Below are positions 2,783 through 18,773 of a stretch of 24,314 nucleotides of DNA, one piece after another (position 1 is the stretch's first letter; every line of letters starts with the position of its first letter). Below the pieces are notes generated by a model, which saw nothing but the letters and a program-made list of their open reading frames with translations, did no database searches and was not told the origin of the DNA. The translations under genes and the position numbers were made by a program. The DNA lies in IMG/VR virus record IMGVR_UViG_3300010885_038393, positions 1 to 24,314 of that record; one strand, written 5' to 3'. The DNA comes from a virus.

Positions 2783-4525
2783 ATGCCAAGGACAAATTTA
2801 TCATTAGGAAATTTATATAGAGCAGTGAGTGGTTCTGCAAGAACATCACAAGCAGTTTCAATCGGTGGATTAGGTGGTACTGCCGCTGGTAGTAATACTG
2901 CATTTACTTCATTCGCAGTAGATTCAATTACAGTAAACCAACCAACTTATACATATATTGTAGAAAGTACATCAGAAACAGCAACTTTTTCTTTTGGAAC
3001 ACAAGGTTCTTTGCATGGTACAAAAGTAGGAAGTGTAGCAGCAAACTATTCAGTAACATTTGATAATGCAAACTTTTCGGTAGGTTCTCCAACATTGGGA
3101 GCATCTCCATCTTTTCCAATTACACCTGCATCAATCGCAGCATCTAACTATTCGGAAGCATCTTCTGTTTTATCAATGAAATATGCCGATGGATATAATT
3201 TAAATGCAACAAATTACAATACTACAACTACTAAAACATTATACGCAGTTGATGTTTATAATACAATTAACCAACCGGATTTTTGTTTAGTATTTGGAAC
3301 TAAGGTAACTTTAGCAAATGGTAGCGAAGTAAATGTTGAAGATTTAAATGTTGGTGATGAAATTAAAGCATGGGTGCCAGCAGGATTACCGGATGAATCA
3401 TTAGATGGTACTGATACTCAATTAACTGAATGGAGATTTTATCAATTAGATACACAATCAGGTTCAGCACAAAATGTTGTTGTATCGGATGTAGTTTATA
3501 ACTTTGCAAGTGGATATTATTCAATAAATAACGGAGAAGTAAAAGCAACAGGCACACACCCTCTTTGGGTATTTGATTCTGAAATTGAAAAATATCATTT
3601 TAAAAACGTAGAAAATATACTTCCAGGTGATATGATTATCAAATGGGATGATTTTTTAAATGAAACGCAAGAAATTGAAGTAACTAATATAGAAGTTATA
3701 ACCGAAGATGTTGAAATTGCAACTATTAACGTAGAACAAGCTGACGTTTATATTGCAAATGGATACATTTCGCATAATAAAGGTACAACAACTCAACCAT
3801 ATATTCCATCAACGGGATTAAGAATGTATGTTGACCAATATAAAACAGTATCATACAATTCAGGAAGTGCAGGAGCAGATTGGTTAGATATGAGTGGTTA
3901 TGGTACAGGTGTAAGACCTGCAGGTGCACCAAACGCCGCAAGTATTACAGGTGATAACCCAACATCTACAAATGGTGCAAATAAGAAAGCATCATATGTA
4001 ACATTTAACGGAACTAACCAATTTTTTTATAAAGATACCGCAACAAATATTAATGGTGGATATTCTCAATTTAATGTTAATACGGGTACTATTCATATTT
4101 GGGTTAGACCTACAACAACATTAGGAACATCATCAAGATTCATTTTTGATTATGCAGGATTTTATGGTTTAGCAATTGAATCAACCGATAGTTCCACATT
4201 AAATAGAATAAAATTCTATGGTAGTTCATTAGGTAATTCGGCACAATTAACAACATCATTGACAGCTGGTACAAACTATTTGATTTCAGCAGCATTCCAA
4301 CCAAGTGGAACTTGTACAATTTATGTGGATGGCGCATCAATTGGTACGTTCTCATCAGCGGCCTTTACCGCACCGGCATCTACAAACTATGTAACAATAG
4401 GTTCAAATAGTGGTAGAACATCTTTTTGGAATGGTGGTATTCAAGCGGTATTGTTCTATAATGTGTTGCAAAACTCAACAAGCGTACAGCAAGTGTATAA
4501 TTATTTCTCTCCAACATTAAAGTAA
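2783..4525 (+). CDS. Virion adhesin with internal Hint (intein-like) domain and LamG lectin domain
   Basis: 580 residues in three parts. Residues 1-167 form a Ser/Thr/Ala-rich, probably beta-structured module that could anchor to the virion. Residues 168-332 are a Hint domain: CLVFGTKVTL at the start (block A, Cys168), VEDLNVGDEI, ATGTHPLWV (block B, T256/H259), and DVYIANGYISHN at the end (blocks F/G, H331-N332). Residues from about 345 to 578 resemble LamG/concanavalin-like lectin domains of phage proteins (GLRMYVDQYKTVSYNSG, ADWLDMSGYG, YVTFNGTNQFF, TIYVDGASIGTF). Lys333 stands at the +1 position where splicing inteins have Cys, Ser or Thr, so it resembles type A bacterial intein-like (BIL) domains, which mainly cleave. 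No homing endonuclease is inserted. A role in surface binding with self-processing is inferred; the N-terminal module is not recognised. Confidence 0.85.
   Translation: MPRTNLSLGNLYRAVSGSARTSQAVSIGGLGGTAAGSNTAFTSFAVDSITVNQPTYTYIVESTSETATFSFGTQGSLHGTKVGSVAANYSVTFDNANFSVGSPTLGASPSFPITPASIAASNYSEASSVLSMKYADGYNLNATNYNTTTTKTLYAVDVYNTINQPDFCLVFGTKVTLANGSEVNVEDLNVGDEIKAWVPAGLPDESLDGTDTQLTEWRFYQLDTQSGSAQNVVVSDVVYNFASGYYSINNGEVKATGTHPLWVFDSEIEKYHFKNVENILPGDMIIKWDDFLNETQEIEVTNIEVITEDVEIATINVEQADVYIANGYISHNKGTTTQPYIPSTGLRMYVDQYKTVSYNSGSAGADWLDMSGYGTGVRPAGAPNAASITGDNPTSTNGANKKASYVTFNGTNQFFYKDTATNINGGYSQFNVNTGTIHIWVRPTTTLGTSSRFIFDYAGFYGLAIESTDSSTLNRIKFYGSSLGNSAQLTTSLTAGTNYLISAAFQPSGTCTIYVDGASIGTFSSAAFTAPASTNYVTIGSNSGRTSFWNGGIQAVLFYNVLQNSTSVQQVYNYFSPTLK
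3284..3778 (+). other. Hint / bacterial intein-like domain (no endonuclease)
   Basis: 165 residues running from TGT (Cys168) at 3284-3286 to AAT (Asn332) at 3776-3778. Visible catalytic residues are the N-terminal Cys, the TxxH pair T256/H259 and the penultimate His331 with terminal Asn332. The next codon is AAA (Lys). The compact length leaves no room for LAGLIDADG or HNH homing domains. Activity is expected at the N-terminal Cys (thioester) and the C-terminal Asn (cyclisation), giving cleavage rather than standard splicing. Confidence 0.85.
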
Positions 4526-6956: not shown

Positions 6957-7445
6957 ATGCCAGAAGTATTAGAATTCGATAAAATGTTCTATACCAACTT
7001 TGAACCAAAGTTAGGTAATAGATTTATAATGGAAATAGACGGAATCCAATCATATATGATTAAAACGGCTAATAGACCAACTTTCACATCGGAAGTAGTT
7101 GAATTAGACCATATCAACGTAAAGAGAAAAATTAAAGGTAAATCAACTTGGGATGATGTGACTATCACTCTTTATGACCCAATTGTACCATCGGGTGCAC
7201 AGCAAGTTATGCAGTGGGTTAGACAATCACACGAATCTTTGACAGGTAGAGATGGATACGCAGCTTTCTATAAGAAAGATATTACATTCTTCTTATTAGG
7301 ACCAGTAGGTGATAAGGTTGAACAATGGACATTAAAAGGAGCATTCATTTCTTCAGCAAACTTTGGTGAATTAGATTGGGCTTCAAATGACCCATTATCA
7401 ATAGAATTAACTCTAACTTATGATTACGCAATTCTTGAGTACTAA
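6957..7445 (+). CDS. Tail tube protein (T4 gp19-like)
   Basis: 162 residues, almost the length of T4 gp19 (163). Features of the family are the N-terminal FEPKLGNRFIMEIDGI, the loop SEVVELDHINVKRKIKGKST, then DDVTITLYDPI and a C-terminal strand pair ending SIELTLTYDYAI. It polymerises into the inner tail tube through which DNA passes and lies directly behind the sheath gene, the usual T4-like order. The gene is followed by a strong intrinsic terminator, which closes the sheath-tube unit. Identification is secure from length, pattern and context. Confidence 0.94.
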   Translation: MPEVLEFDKMFYTNFEPKLGNRFIMEIDGIQSYMIKTANRPTFTSEVVELDHINVKRKIKGKSTWDDVTITLYDPIVPSGAQQVMQWVRQSHESLTGRDGYAAFYKKDITFFLLGPVGDKVEQWTLKGAFISSANFGELDWASNDPLSIELTLTYDYAILEY

Positions 7446-8219: not shown

Positions 8220-9047
8220 ATGGAACAACAAAACGTAGAACAACAAGTTACAAGAGGTTTAGGAACGCAACAAACCGCAACTCCACAACCTAAAAAATCA
8301 TACGATTTTCCAACAGAGGTTATTAGTTTACCATCAAAAGGATTGGGTTATCCCGAATCGCATCCCTTATTTAAAGGTGAGGTTACAATTAAATTAATGA
8401 CTGCCAAAGAAGAAGATATATTGGCATCTCCAAATTTAATTCGTAAAGGAGTTGTATTGGATAAATTATTGGAAGCAATTGTTATTGAAGATGGTGTAAA
8501 AGCTGATGATTTATTAATGGGAGATAAAAACGCCATTTTAATAGCAAGTAGAGTATTGGCATACGGACCAGAATACGATGTTAAAGTTACAGACCCTATC
8601 ACAGAAGAAAATGTCGATTATACAATTGATATGAGTAACGTTAAATTAAAAGAAATTGATTATTCTGTTCTTAGTAGAGATAATAAATACGAATTCACTA
8701 CTGCAAACGGAACTAAAATTGAGTTTCAATTATTAACGCATGGTTTAGAAAAGAAAATAGAAGCGGATTTGGAAGCATTATCTAAATTTAATAAAGATAA
8801 CCCATCCGAAATTACAACACGATTAAGATATATTATTACTTCTGTAAATGGAAATTCCGAATTAGGATATATTACAAATTTTATTAAGAATCAATTTTTA
8901 GCAAAAGATTCTAGAGTTTTTAGAAATTACATTCAATCTATTACACCTGATGTTGATTTAAAATTTGATTATGTAAGCCCAATTACTGGAGAGAGGGAGG
9001 CTCTTTCTATCCCATTTGGGATGGACTTTTTTTACCCTTCCATCTAA
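8220..9047 (+). CDS. T4 gp26-like baseplate/tail assembly protein
   Basis: 275 residues. After a Gln/Thr-rich leader, residues 30-100 show the hallmarks of the T4 baseplate family (PF12322, gp26): ISLPSKGLGYPESHPL, then GEVTIKLMTAKEEDILASPN and IRKGVVLDKLLEAIV. A second beta-rich part carries PITEENVDYTIDMSNV and a late PITGEREALSIPFGMDFF. Gp26 takes part in assembly of the baseplate hub. The position two genes before the tape measure gene is also where long-tailed phages encode their tail assembly chaperone. The 3' end overlaps a +1-frame ORF at a T7 run, so a longer fusion of about 340 residues may be made as a minor product. Family call fairly secure; chaperone role inferred. Confidence 0.78.
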   Translation: MEQQNVEQQVTRGLGTQQTATPQPKKSYDFPTEVISLPSKGLGYPESHPLFKGEVTIKLMTAKEEDILASPNLIRKGVVLDKLLEAIVIEDGVKADDLLMGDKNAILIASRVLAYGPEYDVKVTDPITEENVDYTIDMSNVKLKEIDYSVLSRDNKYEFTTANGTKIEFQLLTHGLEKKIEADLEALSKFNKDNPSEITTRLRYIITSVNGNSELGYITNFIKNQFLAKDSRVFRNYIQSITPDVDLKFDYVSPITGEREALSIPFGMDFFYPSI

Positions 9048-9243
9048 TTACTCATCTTTACTCCATTCGGAGATATTTGATTTATTATATTACTCAAATG
9101 GTTCATTCACTTGGAGCGATGTTTACAATATGCCTACAAAATTCCGTAAGTTTTATATGAAAAAACTATTGGATACCAAAAAGGCAGAAGCTGAATCATT
9201 AAAAAAGAATCAACCTAAGAAAGAATCAATAAGAAAAAGATAA
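9016..9243 (+). CDS. Frameshift extension or TTG-started tail chaperone partner
   Basis: The frame is open from 8977 to 9243 and has no ATG before an internal Met late in the ORF. The only near start is TTG 9016, without a well-placed ribosome signal. It overlaps the end of the gp26-like gene in the +1 frame, and residues after the T7 run (TLPSNYSSLLHSEIFDLLYY, then FTWSDVYNMPTKFRKFYMKK) look like a real, conserved-type protein with a charged Lys/Glu tail. Fusion at the T7 run would join 271 and 69 residues. Extension of an upstream chaperone just before the tape measure gene mirrors the G/GT arrangement of other long-tailed phages. T4 has gene 51 at this place; homology to gp51 cannot be judged by eye. 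Confidence 0.62.
   Translation: MGWTFFTLPSNYSSLLHSEIFDLLYYSNGSFTWSDVYNMPTKFRKFYMKKLLDTKKAEAESLKKNQPKKESIRKR
9027..9033 (+). other. Candidate +1 programmed frameshift site (T7 run)
   Basis: In the gp26-like frame the codons read GAC TTT TTT TAC. A Phe-tRNA on TTT 9030-9032 can re-pair perfectly on TTT 9031-9033, after which ACC 9034 opens the downstream frame. A -2 slip gives the same frame. The zero frame ends 12 bases later at TAA 9045-9047. A sequencing error in the homopolymer is the main alternative. Confidence 0.5.
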
Positions 9244-9245
9244 TC

Positions 9246-9256
9246 TTATATTTATA
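9246..9256 (+). promoter_or_regulatory. Candidate late promoter motif before tape-measure unit
   Basis: Exact TTATATTTATA, 22 bases before the ATG at 9278, in the short gap after the frameshift ORF. It lies inside an imperfect inverted repeat (TAATCTT 9241-9247 and AAGATTA 9260-9266), so a dyad-binding factor is also possible. Confidence 0.48.
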
Positions 9257-9277
9257 TAAAAGATTAAATAGAGAACT

Positions 9278-9514
9278 ATGTCTAAAATAACATTAAAAGA
9301 ATTTAAAGATTTAACCGATTTATTTGCAACCTATTATGCACAAAAAAGTGATAATAGAGAAGATGGTTGGATTGAAAAAACATTCCAAAAATATCCAGCT
9401 TTAAAAAATATTTGGAAAGATTTTGATAAAAAGATTAAAGATGCTGAAACTAGAATAGACAAAACAGCAGTTCCATATTTAAAGAAGCAAGGTATTGACC
9501 CAAATAACTTATAG
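9278..9514 (+). CDS. Small charged helical protein, unknown
   Basis: 78 residues, rich in Lys, Asp and Glu and predicted by eye to be almost all helix (LKEFKDLTDLFATYYAQKSD, then DFDKKIKDAETRIDKTAV). No Cys, no membrane segment. It lies between the probable tail chaperone pair and the tape measure gene, 14 bases before the latter, and has its own late-type promoter motif. Position suggests a role in tape-measure handling or tail length control, but I recognise no family. ATG choice is clear: the only in-frame Met near the start, preceded by an A-rich stretch. Confidence 0.7.
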   Translation: MSKITLKEFKDLTDLFATYYAQKSDNREDGWIEKTFQKYPALKNIWKDFDKKIKDAETRIDKTAVPYLKKQGIDPNNL

Positions 9515-9527
9515 TAGTTAATATCTT

Positions 9528-12377
9528 ATGGCTAAGAATACCAAATCATCGAAAGAACAAGAAATCTCAGCAGCAAATGCTAGAGATGCTAAGGCTTCAA
9601 AAGACTTAGATAGATACTATGCGCAATTAAAACAAATAAACATTGCGAGAGAAAAAGGTGTTGTCGTAGATGAGCAAGAAGTAAAATTATTAAAAGAAAA
9701 AATTGCTTTAAAGAGAAAAGAAGTAAAGGCTACAGAAGAGGCGGGTGAATTAGCTAAAACACAATTTCAGTATTATGATGATATTCTTTCTATTGCTGGA
9801 AAAATTAATAAAAACTTTGAAAAAACCAACTCTATTTCTTCAAAAGTTGGTAGTCAATTTAATGTACTTACCGGCTACGCCGGCGAATTGGCTAAAAATC
9901 TAAAAGAAGGTAATTACTATACAAAAGAAGGAGCTGATGCGGCTAAGAGTTCAGCGGTTGCAATGGAAAACTATTCGAGCGCTGTTTCCAATGCTATGAG
10001 AGAATTTAAAAAGGGAAATATGTCAGCCGATTCCCTTGTCAGTAGTATTCAATCAGCCGAAGATTCTTTATCGGATTTTATAGATGATTTGGATGATAGT
10101 AACGCTGAAGTTGCTAAATTAAAAGCAGGATTGATATCTACAACTGCGGCAACTAAAGATTTAACAAAATCATTTGGACAAAGTAAAAAAGCATTATCAG
10201 ATATATCAAGCGGATTGCAGGATGTAGCTTCAAACGCAGCTTCGGGAATACCAGGAGCAAGTGGATTAGTTCAAGCATTAGGCGGATTAGGTACGGCTGG
10301 ATTCATTGGTGGTATATTTGCGGTTGGTATGGCATTGGGAGAATTGGCCGGATATTTAAGAGATGTATTTGGTATAGCTGGATTAGCTTCAGGTCAAACA
10401 GAAACCGAAAAAGAAGCTAATTTAGAATTAACCAAATCTATTATTGGATTAAATAAAGAATTAGTTAGAACATCGGAAGCATTGGGGCAGAATATAGCTA
10501 TTGGTGGAGCAATGGTTGCCAATATGGCAAAAATGGGAGTATCTGCAAATGAATTCGGTGATGCTACGAAATACGCTTCAAATAATTTAGGATTAGCAGG
10601 GGCAAATGCTCAAAAAGCTGGAGCTGATGTAGCTATGATGGCTAATAGAACCGGAGTAAGTGCTGACCAATTAGGTAGTATAGCTAATACATTTAGAATT
10701 GTAGGAAATCTTAGTGGGCAAACGGCAGTTAATTCATTGGGAATGGCTGAAAGTATGGCTAAAGCTACTGGAATTCCAATCAATGCTATGATGGAAGATT
10801 TAGCAGAATCATCTGAATTATTATTACAAAATAACTATGGTAACGAACAAAGTTTGATAAAGCAAGTAGCAACACTTAGAGTAATGGGTGTGGCTGCACA
10901 AAAGGTTTTACAAGCTGGTCAAAATATGGTTTTGAACTACAAAGATAGTATCAAAGCCGAAATGAAATTATCTGCATTATTAGGAAAACAGGTAGACCTT
11001 TCAAGAGTTAGACAGAAGTTTGCATCTGGCGATGCCGCTGGAGCAGCTGATGCACTAAGAACTCAATTGAAAGGAATTGATATGGATAAGATGAACATGT
11101 TCCAAAGACAGGCTTTACAAGAAGCAACTGGAATGGATATGGATACCATTATGAAATTGGGCAAAGGTGGAAAGGGCGGCCCATTAAAAACACAACAAGA
11201 AGAACAATTAAAATCTCTAAATAATATAGGGACAATAATGGGGCGAATTGAAGACCAATTCAAAAATGGAACTATCAGTATACAAGAAAAAAACGCTCAA
11301 GCGGCAGCAAAAATATATGGTGCAGAAGTAGCAGCAGCACAAGCAATTAAAAGAGCTGAATTCGATAAATCGATGCTTGATTTTAAAGATAAAGCGTTGG
11401 ATTATTTAATGGGAATTGCTATAGCGTTAGCAGCTGGTGTACTTTTTAAAGGTGTGAAAGCGCTATTAAAAAAGCCCGTAGCCAACGTAGCATCTAAAAC
11501 AATTGCAAAAAAAGTAGCATCTAAAACAGTTGCAAAAAAAGTAGCAACAGAGACAGCTAAAAAAGCAGCTACAAAAGCGGTTACTAAAAAGGTAGCTACA
11601 AAAGCAGCTACTAAAGGTGGTACGGGTATATTAAGTAAAATTGCTAGTATCATTCCTGGAGTTGGTAATGCTGGTAAAGCAGGCGCTGGTGGTTTGATGA
11701 GTGGTATTGCTAAAGGTGGATTAAAAGGTATAATGGGTGGAATTGGTAAAGGACTTTTGAAAGGAGGACCAATTGGATTGTTAGGAACTGCAGCAGGTAT
11801 GGTTGGTGAATACTTTGGAGGACAGAGACAGGAACAGGGAATGGCTGAAGGAGATAGAGGTAAAGTTAATCAAGGTAAAGCACTCAAAACGGGAGCAACC
11901 GCACTTGAATATGCTGGATATGGCGCAGCAATTGGTAGTATTATTCCTGGAATTGGAACGGCAGTTGGTGGTGCTATTGGTGGTGTGGTTGGTGGTATCA
12001 AAGGTATATGGGATAATTGGTTTAGTGATGATGCCAAAGCAGCTGATGAACAATTAAAAAAAGTTGAAGAGCAAAATAAAGTAGCAGCCGCTCAAAAAGT
12101 ATTATCAGAAAGAGATATAGCAACTCAAGAGGCTATGAAAGGACAATCTGCAACATTAGCCGCAGCAGCGCAAGATACGGGATTTTGGCAAGCAGCTATG
12201 GTTGCACAATTAGTTGAAGCTACGAGATTAATAGAAATTATAGCATTCGCATCAGATGATGAAGATGATACTACTAAAGAAATCTACTTAGATGGTAAGA
12301 GAATTACTAGATTGAACTACGATAGAGCATCCACATTATATAATACAATGTCGACTCAAAAGGCAGCAGCAAAATAA
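9528..12377 (+). CDS. Tail tape measure protein
   Basis: 949 residues, far longer than T4 gp29 (590). The order is: Lys/Ala/Glu-rich coiled coil (1-230), a hydrophobic Gly-rich segment able to span a membrane (about 250-277), a long Ala/Met-rich helical middle (320-540), a second hydrophobic segment (626-643, YLMGIAIALAAGVLF), a Lys/Ala/Thr repeat (about 648-697), Gly-rich hydrophobic stretches (698-765 and 795-825), and a helical tail. This mix of coiled coil and membrane-active segments, directly before the tube-initiator gene, is typical of tape measures, which set tail length and exit into the host envelope during injection. At the usual 0.15 nm per residue a tail of about 140 nm is expected. 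No lysozyme or peptidase motif was seen. Confidence 0.88.
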   Translation: MAKNTKSSKEQEISAANARDAKASKDLDRYYAQLKQINIAREKGVVVDEQEVKLLKEKIALKRKEVKATEEAGELAKTQFQYYDDILSIAGKINKNFEKTNSISSKVGSQFNVLTGYAGELAKNLKEGNYYTKEGADAAKSSAVAMENYSSAVSNAMREFKKGNMSADSLVSSIQSAEDSLSDFIDDLDDSNAEVAKLKAGLISTTAATKDLTKSFGQSKKALSDISSGLQDVASNAASGIPGASGLVQALGGLGTAGFIGGIFAVGMALGELAGYLRDVFGIAGLASGQTETEKEANLELTKSIIGLNKELVRTSEALGQNIAIGGAMVANMAKMGVSANEFGDATKYASNNLGLAGANAQKAGADVAMMANRTGVSADQLGSIANTFRIVGNLSGQTAVNSLGMAESMAKATGIPINAMMEDLAESSELLLQNNYGNEQSLIKQVATLRVMGVAAQKVLQAGQNMVLNYKDSIKAEMKLSALLGKQVDLSRVRQKFASGDAAGAADALRTQLKGIDMDKMNMFQRQALQEATGMDMDTIMKLGKGGKGGPLKTQQEEQLKSLNNIGTIMGRIEDQFKNGTISIQEKNAQAAAKIYGAEVAAAQAIKRAEFDKSMLDFKDKALDYLMGIAIALAAGVLFKGVKALLKKPVANVASKTIAKKVASKTVAKKVATETAKKAATKAVTKKVATKAATKGGTGILSKIASIIPGVGNAGKAGAGGLMSGIAKGGLKGIMGGIGKGLLKGGPIGLLGTAAGMVGEYFGGQRQEQGMAEGDRGKVNQGKALKTGATALEYAGYGAAIGSIIPGIGTAVGGAIGGVVGGIKGIWDNWFSDDAKAADEQLKKVEEQNKVAAAQKVLSERDIATQEAMKGQSATLAAAAQDTGFWQAAMVAQLVEATRLIEIIAFASDDEDDTTKEIYLDGKRITRLNYDRASTLYNTMSTQKAAAK
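11487..11540 (+). repeat. Tandem 27-bp repeat in tape measure gene
   Basis: Two adjacent 27-base units differing at one position encode VASKTIAKK and VASKTVAKK. Degenerate copies follow (VATETAKKA, ATKAVTKK, VATKAATK), giving a basic Lys/Ala/Thr segment of about 50 residues that resembles histone H1 tails in composition. Confidence 0.85.
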
Positions 12378-16333: not shown

Positions 16334-16708
16334 ATGTATAAAGATATAGCAAAAAATATTGATAATTTTACTATTAAGATACCAAATACTATCGTACCAA
16401 CACCATCTGCTTCAGATTATGAAAATGGATTTATAGAACGATATTTTTTACAAGTTAGTTTTGATTCAAATGGGTTTGTATATGAAGTAACTGAAAAAGT
16501 ATTTGATAAATACATTGAAACTCCATTTTGGATTGGTGAAAGACTTTTTTGGAGAATCATAGGTCCAATGGATACTATGTATAATGAATTTGGAGATGAA
16601 AAAGATAAAGGAGTAATTAACTCAAATAAAGCATCAATTTCAATAGCTTCTTTGAAAATTAAAAATATTTCCTTATATTTACCAAACTTAAAACAATTTC
16701 ATAAATAA
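16334..16708 (+). CDS. Small conserved-type phage protein, probably baseplate-associated
   Basis: 124 residues, starting one base after the hub stop and overlapping the next gene by one base, so clearly part of the baseplate operon. The sequence shows NFTIKIPNTIVPTPSASDYE, GFIERYFLQVSFDSNGFVYE and TPFWIGERLFWRIIGP, a mixed alpha/beta pattern rich in aromatic residues and free of Cys. The GFIERYF segment looks like a conserved core of proteins found beside hub genes in marine T4-like phages, but I cannot name the family. A structural role at the hub is inferred from position. Confidence 0.65.
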   Translation: MYKDIAKNIDNFTIKIPNTIVPTPSASDYENGFIERYFLQVSFDSNGFVYEVTEKVFDKYIETPFWIGERLFWRIIGPMDTMYNEFGDEKDKGVINSNKASISIASLKIKNISLYLPNLKQFHK

Positions 16709-17469
16709 TGAAACACGTTAACAACACCGAAGCTGAAAACTTATTGCACGATTGGAAATACAAAGGATATGCAATTGTGGATTTTCTTACTGAATCCGAA
16801 GTCGATGAAATAATTGTTGAATTGGATAGATTAAGAATTAATAGAAATCAATCTGATACAAAATGGGGAGAATATGAACCATACATGCATCCACATAAAG
16901 AATCCGAATTGGTTAATAAGATGTTAGCACATCCAAAAGCCATTGAAATGATGGAATTATTATTTGATTCAGAAGTACAGGGTGTACAAACGTGGGCATA
17001 CTTCAAACCATCGGGTGAATTGGGAAGGGATGCGCATCAAGATGGATTCTACTCACAAGCAGGTTGGAATAAGATTGCAAACATATCAATATCATTAGAC
17101 CCATCAGATGAAACTAATGGTGGATTATGGGCATATGAAGGTTCTCACTATTTACCATTGTTGGATATTGAAGTGGATGAGGAAAGAATTAAAACAAACC
17201 CAGGCAATTGGAGAAACGAAAGAGGTAAAGCATCTAAAATGCCTGAAGGACACAATTTCCCAAAAATATATGCTACACTTAAAAAAGGACAAGCATTTTT
17301 AATACATTCGCATTTAGTGCACGGCTCTGATACAAATACGGGTAAGAATTCTAGATATTCCATTTTAAGTGGATATATGGTTAAAGGTGGGTTTCTTAGA
17401 CAAGGAGAGCATATGAAAAGAGAACCAATTGATATTTATGCATTAAGACAGAAATATTGGGAAGAATAA
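16708..17469 (+). CDS. Phytanoyl-CoA dioxygenase-like 2OG/Fe(II) oxygenase
   Basis: 253 residues of PhyH type. The metal-binding triad is visible: H110-x-D112 in DAHQDGFYSQAG and the distal H205 in HSHLVHGSDTNTG, with R216 eleven residues later to bind 2-oxoglutarate. SISLDPSDETNGGLWAYEGS, with its NG-W-x(2)-GSH pattern, is also typical. Length matches the family. The enzyme should hydroxylate a small molecule, lipid, nucleotide or protein in the cytosol; the substrate cannot be read from sequence. It overlaps the last baseplate gene (TAATG), so it is made late with structural proteins, which would fit modification of a virion component or of cell-envelope material. T4-like marine phages often carry such genes. 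Confidence 0.85.
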   Translation: MKHVNNTEAENLLHDWKYKGYAIVDFLTESEVDEIIVELDRLRINRNQSDTKWGEYEPYMHPHKESELVNKMLAHPKAIEMMELLFDSEVQGVQTWAYFKPSGELGRDAHQDGFYSQAGWNKIANISISLDPSDETNGGLWAYEGSHYLPLLDIEVDEERIKTNPGNWRNERGKASKMPEGHNFPKIYATLKKGQAFLIHSHLVHGSDTNTGKNSRYSILSGYMVKGGFLRQGEHMKREPIDIYALRQKYWEE

Positions 17470-17507: not shown

Positions 17508-18773
17508 ATGAACCTAATAGAAACAAATAAAGCCCTACTATCATTTTACACATCTAATCATAGAGTTGTGCTAGTTGTTCCTATATGGAGTTCTCCAAAA
17601 GCACACGAATATGATACATCGATATCATTCATATATCTTAGAACAAACGATTCGGATTACATTATAAACTTTAATCATATTGATGGTAATAAATGCAATC
17701 TTATCAAATTTGACAAATTAATTTCAGAAAATACTTTAGTTTTAGGTAATCGTTATTTAGATACAAAAGGAATAGATTATGAGTGGGCATATTTTGAAGA
17801 GTATGGTAAACCATTCATATTGAATGAGTTCGCTGACGAGGTTTATAAGGGGTATAGAAGCGACTTTAAATATCTAAATGATTGTGTACCTATAATGAGA
17901 TGGTACGAGCTCTTACAACGAATTCCTATAATTTCAGAAATTAAACCTTGGTATAGAAAATACTCCAATTCCATTAAAATATTAGGGAGGCTGGAGGGGG
18001 CTGGGGTGAAAGTCGAAGAAGAAAAATTTATTGATAGATTTCATTTCAACAAAGAGTATTTGCCCAAAGGGTTTGCCTATACAAAATACAATCCATATAC
18101 GGTAACCGGTCGTCCATCCAATAGACACTTAGGGGTTAATTGGGCTGCGATGAATAAATCCGATGGTAGTAGGTCTAACATAGTAAGCCGATTTAATGGG
18201 GGTACGCTTCTTCAATTTGATTATGAATCCTATCATATCCGTATCATTGGTAAGATGGTGGGGTATGTGTTTCCGGAGGGGGAAACTGCGCACGAACATT
18301 TAGCAAAATATTATGGGGTTACGACAGAAGAATCTAAAGCCCTATCATTCCGATATCTTTATGGTGGTTTGGATGAATTTGCAAAGGGGATTCCGTTTTT
18401 TCAAAAGGTGGATGAATACATTAAATCCCTTTACCAAAAGTTCGTAATTTCGGGTCGTTTGACGACGCCTCTTTATAAGAGGGAAATCCCATTCCAACGA
18501 ATCGAATCTCCTAACGAACAAAAGGTATTTAACTACTTACTTCAGGCATTGGAAACTGAAATCAATTATACAAAGATTGATGAGGTACTGAAATGTTTGG
18601 AGGGTGGTAGGTCAAAAATGATACTTTATACTTATGATGCGTTCTTAATTGATGTACATCCATCGGAAAGGAGTTCAGTATTAAAGGATTTAACATTCAT
18701 ATTGGAACGAGGTGGATTTCCTGTTAAATCGTATGAGGGAACTAATTACGATAATTTAGAGGTTATTAAATAA
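17508..18773 (+). CDS. Short divergent family A DNA polymerase
   Basis: 421 residues. The palm and fingers motifs of family A polymerases are in order: TGRPSNRHLGVNW (200-212), motif A QFDYESYHIR (D238), motif B KALSFRYLYGG (K277, F281, Y285), NYLLQALETE (342-351) and motif C LYTYDAFLIDV (D377). Both metal-binding Asp are kept. By position against Klenow, the steric-gate Glu710 is His243, Arg754 is Thr273, and the Glu after the motif C Asp is Ala378. The first 150 residues could be a remnant exonuclease-like domain, but no DxE or other exonuclease motif is clear. T4 itself uses a family B enzyme. Base use is richer in G than in neighbouring genes. It may be a replicative or an accessory polymerase; the host-type promoter suggests early expression. 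Confidence 0.82.
   Translation: MNLIETNKALLSFYTSNHRVVLVVPIWSSPKAHEYDTSISFIYLRTNDSDYIINFNHIDGNKCNLIKFDKLISENTLVLGNRYLDTKGIDYEWAYFEEYGKPFILNEFADEVYKGYRSDFKYLNDCVPIMRWYELLQRIPIISEIKPWYRKYSNSIKILGRLEGAGVKVEEEKFIDRFHFNKEYLPKGFAYTKYNPYTVTGRPSNRHLGVNWAAMNKSDGSRSNIVSRFNGGTLLQFDYESYHIRIIGKMVGYVFPEGETAHEHLAKYYGVTTEESKALSFRYLYGGLDEFAKGIPFFQKVDEYIKSLYQKFVISGRLTTPLYKREIPFQRIESPNEQKVFNYLLQALETEINYTKIDEVLKCLEGGRSKMILYTYDAFLIDVHPSERSSVLKDLTFILERGGFPVKSYEGTNYDNLEVIK

Follow-up and report, generated by a model that had tools for sequence, protein, structure and literature searches.

The gp26-like gene at positions 8220-9243 was concluded very probably to encode a tail assembly chaperone of a T4-related phage with a contractile tail, produced in a short and a long form by a +1 slip of the ribosome. 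That the shift occurs, how efficient it is, and that the product acts as a chaperone are points that we infer from comparisons of sequences. The window, as the whole analyzed stretch of 24,314 nucleotides is called here, was the IMG/VR record IMGVR_UViG_3300010885_038393, positions 1 to 24,314. A preliminary description of this DNA had proposed a frameshift joining the two reading frames of the gene, and the comparisons presented below supported that interpretation.

The gp26-like gene and its neighbours

The features of the locus were as follows.

6957..7445, + strand: tail tube protein, gp19-like, upstream neighbour (profile matches)
8220..9047, + strand: short form, gp26-like protein, 275 aa, frame 0, C-terminus ..MDFFYPSI before the stop
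9006..9025, + strand: predicted RNA hairpin 5' of the slippery site, putative stimulator
9027..9033, + strand: slippery site TTT TTT T (T7), frame-0 codons GAC TTT TTT TAC
9034..9243, + strand: +1-frame extension, 69 aa past ..MDFF, beginning TLPSNYSS, without a start of its own
9045..9047, + strand: frame-0 stop TAA, 11 nt past T7 (11-17 nt in relatives)
9528..12377, + strand: tape-measure-like protein, 949 aa, downstream neighbour (weak PHROG 167 match)

The short form matched PF12322 (T4_baseplate) with 31.3 bits, above the curated cut-off of 24.5, and PHROG 150 with an E value of 6e-12. The second reading frame, shifted by +1, contained no ATG, had TTG 9016 as its sole listed start and ended at 9243; the fusion of the short form and the extension amounted to 340 aa. 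The sheath and tube (gp19) genes were located upstream of the gp26-like ORF, and the order of tube gene, gp26-like gene (8220-9243) and tape measure gene was that known for chaperones of the gpG/gpGT type, in agreement with the location proposed previously. The same order was found in phages immuto, LIS04 and SP-15 and was absent from the annotated region of RM378. The extension had also been placed before the tape measure gene; the order held, but the two were separated by an ORF of 78 aa (9278-9514), for which neither Pfam nor PHROGs gave a significant family match. No match to Rfam was obtained within 8500-9600, no tRNA genes were found in the window, and a PDB sequence search with the fusion protein returned nothing relevant.

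Several other genes of the window were recorded. The ORF at 2783-4525 encoded 580 aa that included a LamG-like domain (PF13385) and, by eye, a Hint/intein-like segment (CLVFGTKVTLANGSEVNVEDLNVGDEI ... VYIANGYISHNKG). A PhyH-type dioxygenase (PF05721) was encoded at 16708-17469 amid the tail and baseplate genes, and the 421-aa product of 17508-18773, which matched DNA polymerase A weakly (E 0.005), was possibly a polymerase fragment. The LamG-like ORF, unrelated to the gene under study, carried a second in-frame T7 at position 4022, and therefore the presence of T7 by itself was not taken as proof of a slip.

Conservation of the slippery site and selection on the extension

A scan of IMG/VR yielded 80 loci of 46-90% identity, which together with the window made up 81 sequences of the window clade. 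The exact heptamer TTT TTT T, preceded by a base other than T, was present in 80 of the 81; the single exception (L037) had TTC TTT T. The conservation of the T-run and of the overlap between the two frames, which the preliminary description had named as a check, was seen in the 81 close sequences and in more than 20 distant ones. The frame-0 codons behind T7 were TAC, TAT or TGG, followed by CCT or CCA. Among 34 representatives of less than 75% identity, 33 had TTT for both Phe codons, when 21 were expected from the Phe codon usage of the gene itself (p about 3e-6, calculated with phylogeny ignored). Of the remaining Phe columns that most representatives share, none was equally uniform over as many sequences, and the other conserved columns mixed TTT and TTC.

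Past the frame-0 stop, a dN/dS of 0.22 was obtained for the +1 frame from 183 pairs, and values of 1.2-1.4 for the other frames. Stop codons downstream were found in the +1 frame at none of 78 loci, and in the other two frames at 78 and 73 of the 78. The +1-frame extension is a real domain under purifying selection, as had been suspected for this ATG-less ORF from the appearance of its translation.

In many loci of the window clade, a +1-frame stop was located 5-11 nt 5' of T7 with no start codon between them; the distance was exactly 5 nt in, for example, L002, L019, L036, L043, L048 and L051. The first +1-frame NTG of such relatives was situated deep in the conserved domain, usually at codon 16 or later. 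It follows that at those loci the extension domain is reachable from frame 0 only.

The proposed shift: direction, mechanism and other explanations

The +1 overlap was also retained in isolate phages and distant contigs with other slip sites: TTT TTT C in SP-15, TTC TTT C in GXN1, TTT TTT A in LIS04, TTT TTT T in RM378 and Mel-JY01, TTT CTT T in immuto and TTT C in LR756508. A further 14 contigs of the L199-L213 group combined TTC TTT T with a +1 overlap. At all of these sites except that of LIS04, the P-site codon UUU (or CUU) had a pyrimidine behind it, so that the P-site codon is able to re-pair at +1 on UUU-U or UUU-C, or on CUU-U in immuto; in LIS04 the slip would need the first UUU. The slip site was lost in L209, L214 and L089, where the extension was an independent ORF that starts with ATG. 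In the annotated records of immuto, SP-15, LIS04 and RM378 the extension was dropped or split. A -1 shift on a heptamer of the X XXY YYZ type does not fit the window, the frame of the product being +1.

It was proposed that most ribosomes would stop at the frame-0 TAA and release the 275-aa short protein. In a minority of them, the tRNA-Phe paired to UUU 9030-9032 in the P site, with UAC awaiting in the A site, would move by +1 to UUU 9031-9033 with perfect re-pairing before UAC/UGG was decoded, and the shifted ribosomes would then read ..FF-TLPSNYSS.. to give the 340-aa long form. UUU is reported to be one of the P-site codons most prone to +1 slippage (PMC10885494). If lambda gpG/gpGT is a guide, the tape measure protein would be coated by the short form, and the tail tube subunits would be recruited through the extension; the roles of short and long tail chaperones of the lambda type have been reviewed (PMC5009743).

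The classical stimulators of +1 shifts, an A-site stop codon and a Shine-Dalgarno sequence 3 nt upstream, were absent at the site. The A-site codon of the window clade was UAC, UGG or UAU rather than a stop. Strong anti-Shine-Dalgarno pairing within the 24 nt 5' of T7 was recorded for 19% of the loci against a background of 11%, and a Shine-Dalgarno stimulator upstream of T7, barely above background, was rejected. No clear signal of a downstream stimulatory structure was detected 3' of T7. The 5' hairpin (9006-9025) exceeded synonymous recodings in stability (mean z of -1.9), with values of about 0 elsewhere in the gene; against dinucleotide shuffles the effect was weaker (z of -1.0 to -1.3), and covariation of the hairpin was not significant overall. 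We suggest no more than that this hairpin may stimulate the +1 slip. The starts of the genes in the window were preceded by A/T-rich sequence without a clear Shine-Dalgarno, typical of Bacteroidota hosts.

Other routes to the extension were weighed against the +1 slip. The preliminary description had left the shift as either +1 or -2, and a ribosomal frameshift of -2, which would leave one extra Phe in the product, is known in phage Mu. On T7 itself the second Phe-tRNA could re-pair perfectly after such a shift; however, it would find no re-pairing in L037, L199-L213, GXN1, LR756508 and immuto, where the +1 shift re-pairs fully or nearly so. The relatives with TTC TTT T, TTC TTT C, TTT C and CTT T thus favoured +1, and the -2 shift was considered very unlikely. 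Little credence was likewise given to transcriptional slippage on T7 producing a mixed mRNA population: a homopolymer does exist, but seven T are short for slippage of a polymerase, and the relatives without a homopolymer retain the overlap. An assembly error, in which a single base would merge the frames, or a decayed gene was regarded as extremely improbable, since the same junction was shared by dozens of independent contigs and by isolate genomes, and the extension was under selection. Sequencing error, raised earlier as a run of six T misread as seven, was thereby excluded for the family.

The extension might instead be translated alone, with TTG 9016 serving as the start in place of an ATG, or through re-initiation past the frame-0 stop. 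A TTG is indeed found in the +1 frame at 9016, cyanophage extensions carry an ATG right behind the slip site, and L209, L214 and L089 have the ATG-started ORFs mentioned above. Nevertheless, TTG 9016 sits within the short gene and is unconserved, the conserved domain begins directly at FF, and an independent start leaves the near-invariant T-run unexplained. The +1-frame stops 5-11 nt before T7 and the late first NTG in many relatives excluded initiation at TTG 9016 as a general mechanism. Separate translation was therefore judged improbable.

The proposed +1 slip was compared with systems already described. The locus resembled lambda gpG/gpGT in that the gene lay between the tube and tape measure genes, the slip site came shortly before the short gene ends, and the short protein would be joined by frameshifting to a C-terminal domain from an overlapping start-less ORF behind a conserved site. 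It differed in the direction and the site, +1 at UUU-U/C here and -1 at a heptamer in the lambda type, and in the protein family, PF12322. No significant sequence match was found between the lambda-type chaperones and the window family; the match of SP-15 to PHROG 508 was weak and not significant (E 0.19). As in prfB (RF2), a P-site tRNA would shift by +1 onto an overlapping U-rich codon, and CUU-U of immuto is the prfB slip sequence itself, but unlike prfB the window site had neither an A-site stop codon nor a well-placed Shine-Dalgarno. Flavobacterium johnsoniae is reported to shift poorly at prfB (PMC12421855). Shifts of +1 in structural or tail genes occur in Listeria phage PSA and haloarchaeal HSTV-2 as well, although PSA, unlike the window site, shifts on proline codons, in the capsid and tail-shaft genes (PMC5009743).

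Relation to gp26 and gp51 of T4

Both gp26 (208 aa) and gp51 (249 aa) of T4 matched PF12322, with 215.6 and 177.5 bits, respectively. In PHROG 150, gp51 covered positions 13-280 and gp26 positions 14-235 only; gp26 stopped right past FF, and gp51 ran on into a C-terminal domain. Within this family, shared with the window protein, gp26 corresponded to the short form ending at FF and gp51 to the long form. Unlike the window locus, T4 has a gene for each of the two, transcribed divergently, and no frameshift. T4 gp28 was rejected as a counterpart of the extension, as it belongs to a separate family (PF11110). A PDB sequence search with T4 gp26 and gp51 returned no relevant chain, gp26 hitting zinc-finger look-alikes only; this is compatible with proteins absent from the virion but does not prove it.

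A third arrangement was found in P-SSM2, S-PM2, the pelagiphage HTVC008M, Cr30, KVP40 and Atu_ph07. Like the window, these phages had a single PF12322 gene with FF at the junction, ending in FF plus V, A or L or directly in FF, and an overlapping extension resembling the C-terminus of gp51. Unlike in the window, the extension followed U UUU UUC/U and was read in the -1 frame, at the same codon pair. TTTTTTC was present in all 80 cyanophage-like contigs. The extension of the cyanophages contained an ATG and that of HTVC008M did not; the cyanophages with such an ATG may use both the frameshift and an own start. The extension ORF of P-SSM2 is annotated as gp51, and the annotators of KVP40 noted that its short ORF resembles the gp51 C-terminus.

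In profile-profile comparisons, the window-clade extension and those of Firmicute phages were matched at 96%, the L199 clade and the -1 extensions at 93%, and the -1 extensions and the gp51 C-terminus at 97.9%; the window-clade extension reached 62% (E 8e-5) against the joint profile. Controls with unrelated slices gave at most 2.2%. With moderate confidence, and partly through such intermediates, the window-clade extension would be homologous to the C-terminal domain of gp51.

Searches of whole records revealed one PF12322 gene in the phages with +1 or -1 sites and two in T4, PhT2, Aeromonas 31, phiP4-3 and RB43. In Bacillus phage G, a PF12322 match was not found. The Campylobacter phage NCTC12673 (L113, NC_015464) had tandem PF12322 genes, the second of which (the long form) contained an internal in-frame TAA, which may reflect recoding or an error in the sequence. 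In the tree, KVP40, with one gene and a -1 site, was sister to gp26 and gp51 (support 0.83) within a well-supported -1 clade; the deep branches were long, and the timing of the duplication is therefore tentative.

T4 thus seems to supply the short and long pair from two duplicated genes. We consider it reasonably probable, as a joint proposal, that gp26 (short) and gp51 (long) are duplicates of one frameshifted gene and represent a derived state, that the family switched among a -1 slip, a +1 slip on UUU-Y, separate starts and duplication, always at the FF junction, and that the 5' hairpin may aid the +1 slip where hosts ignore Shine-Dalgarno sequences. A duplication inside the -1 clade would explain the listing of T4 as an exception to tail-chaperone frameshifting. 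The proteins gp26 and gp51 are listed as hub assembly chaperones, gp51 being essential and not part of the particle (Leiman et al., PMC3004832). The long-standing description of gp51 as a 'catalyst', essential yet outside the particle, would fit a long form of which little is required. In the literature accessible without subscription, nothing was found that linked PF12322, gp26, gp51 or the term 'baseplate hub assembly catalyst' to frameshifting.

In this family, +1 and -1 slip sites form a natural series at a single homologous codon pair, on which the evolution of frameshift direction can be studied, including in phages without Shine-Dalgarno sequences at their gene starts. The long-puzzling T4 proteins gp26 and gp51 look like a short and long pair made by gene duplication.
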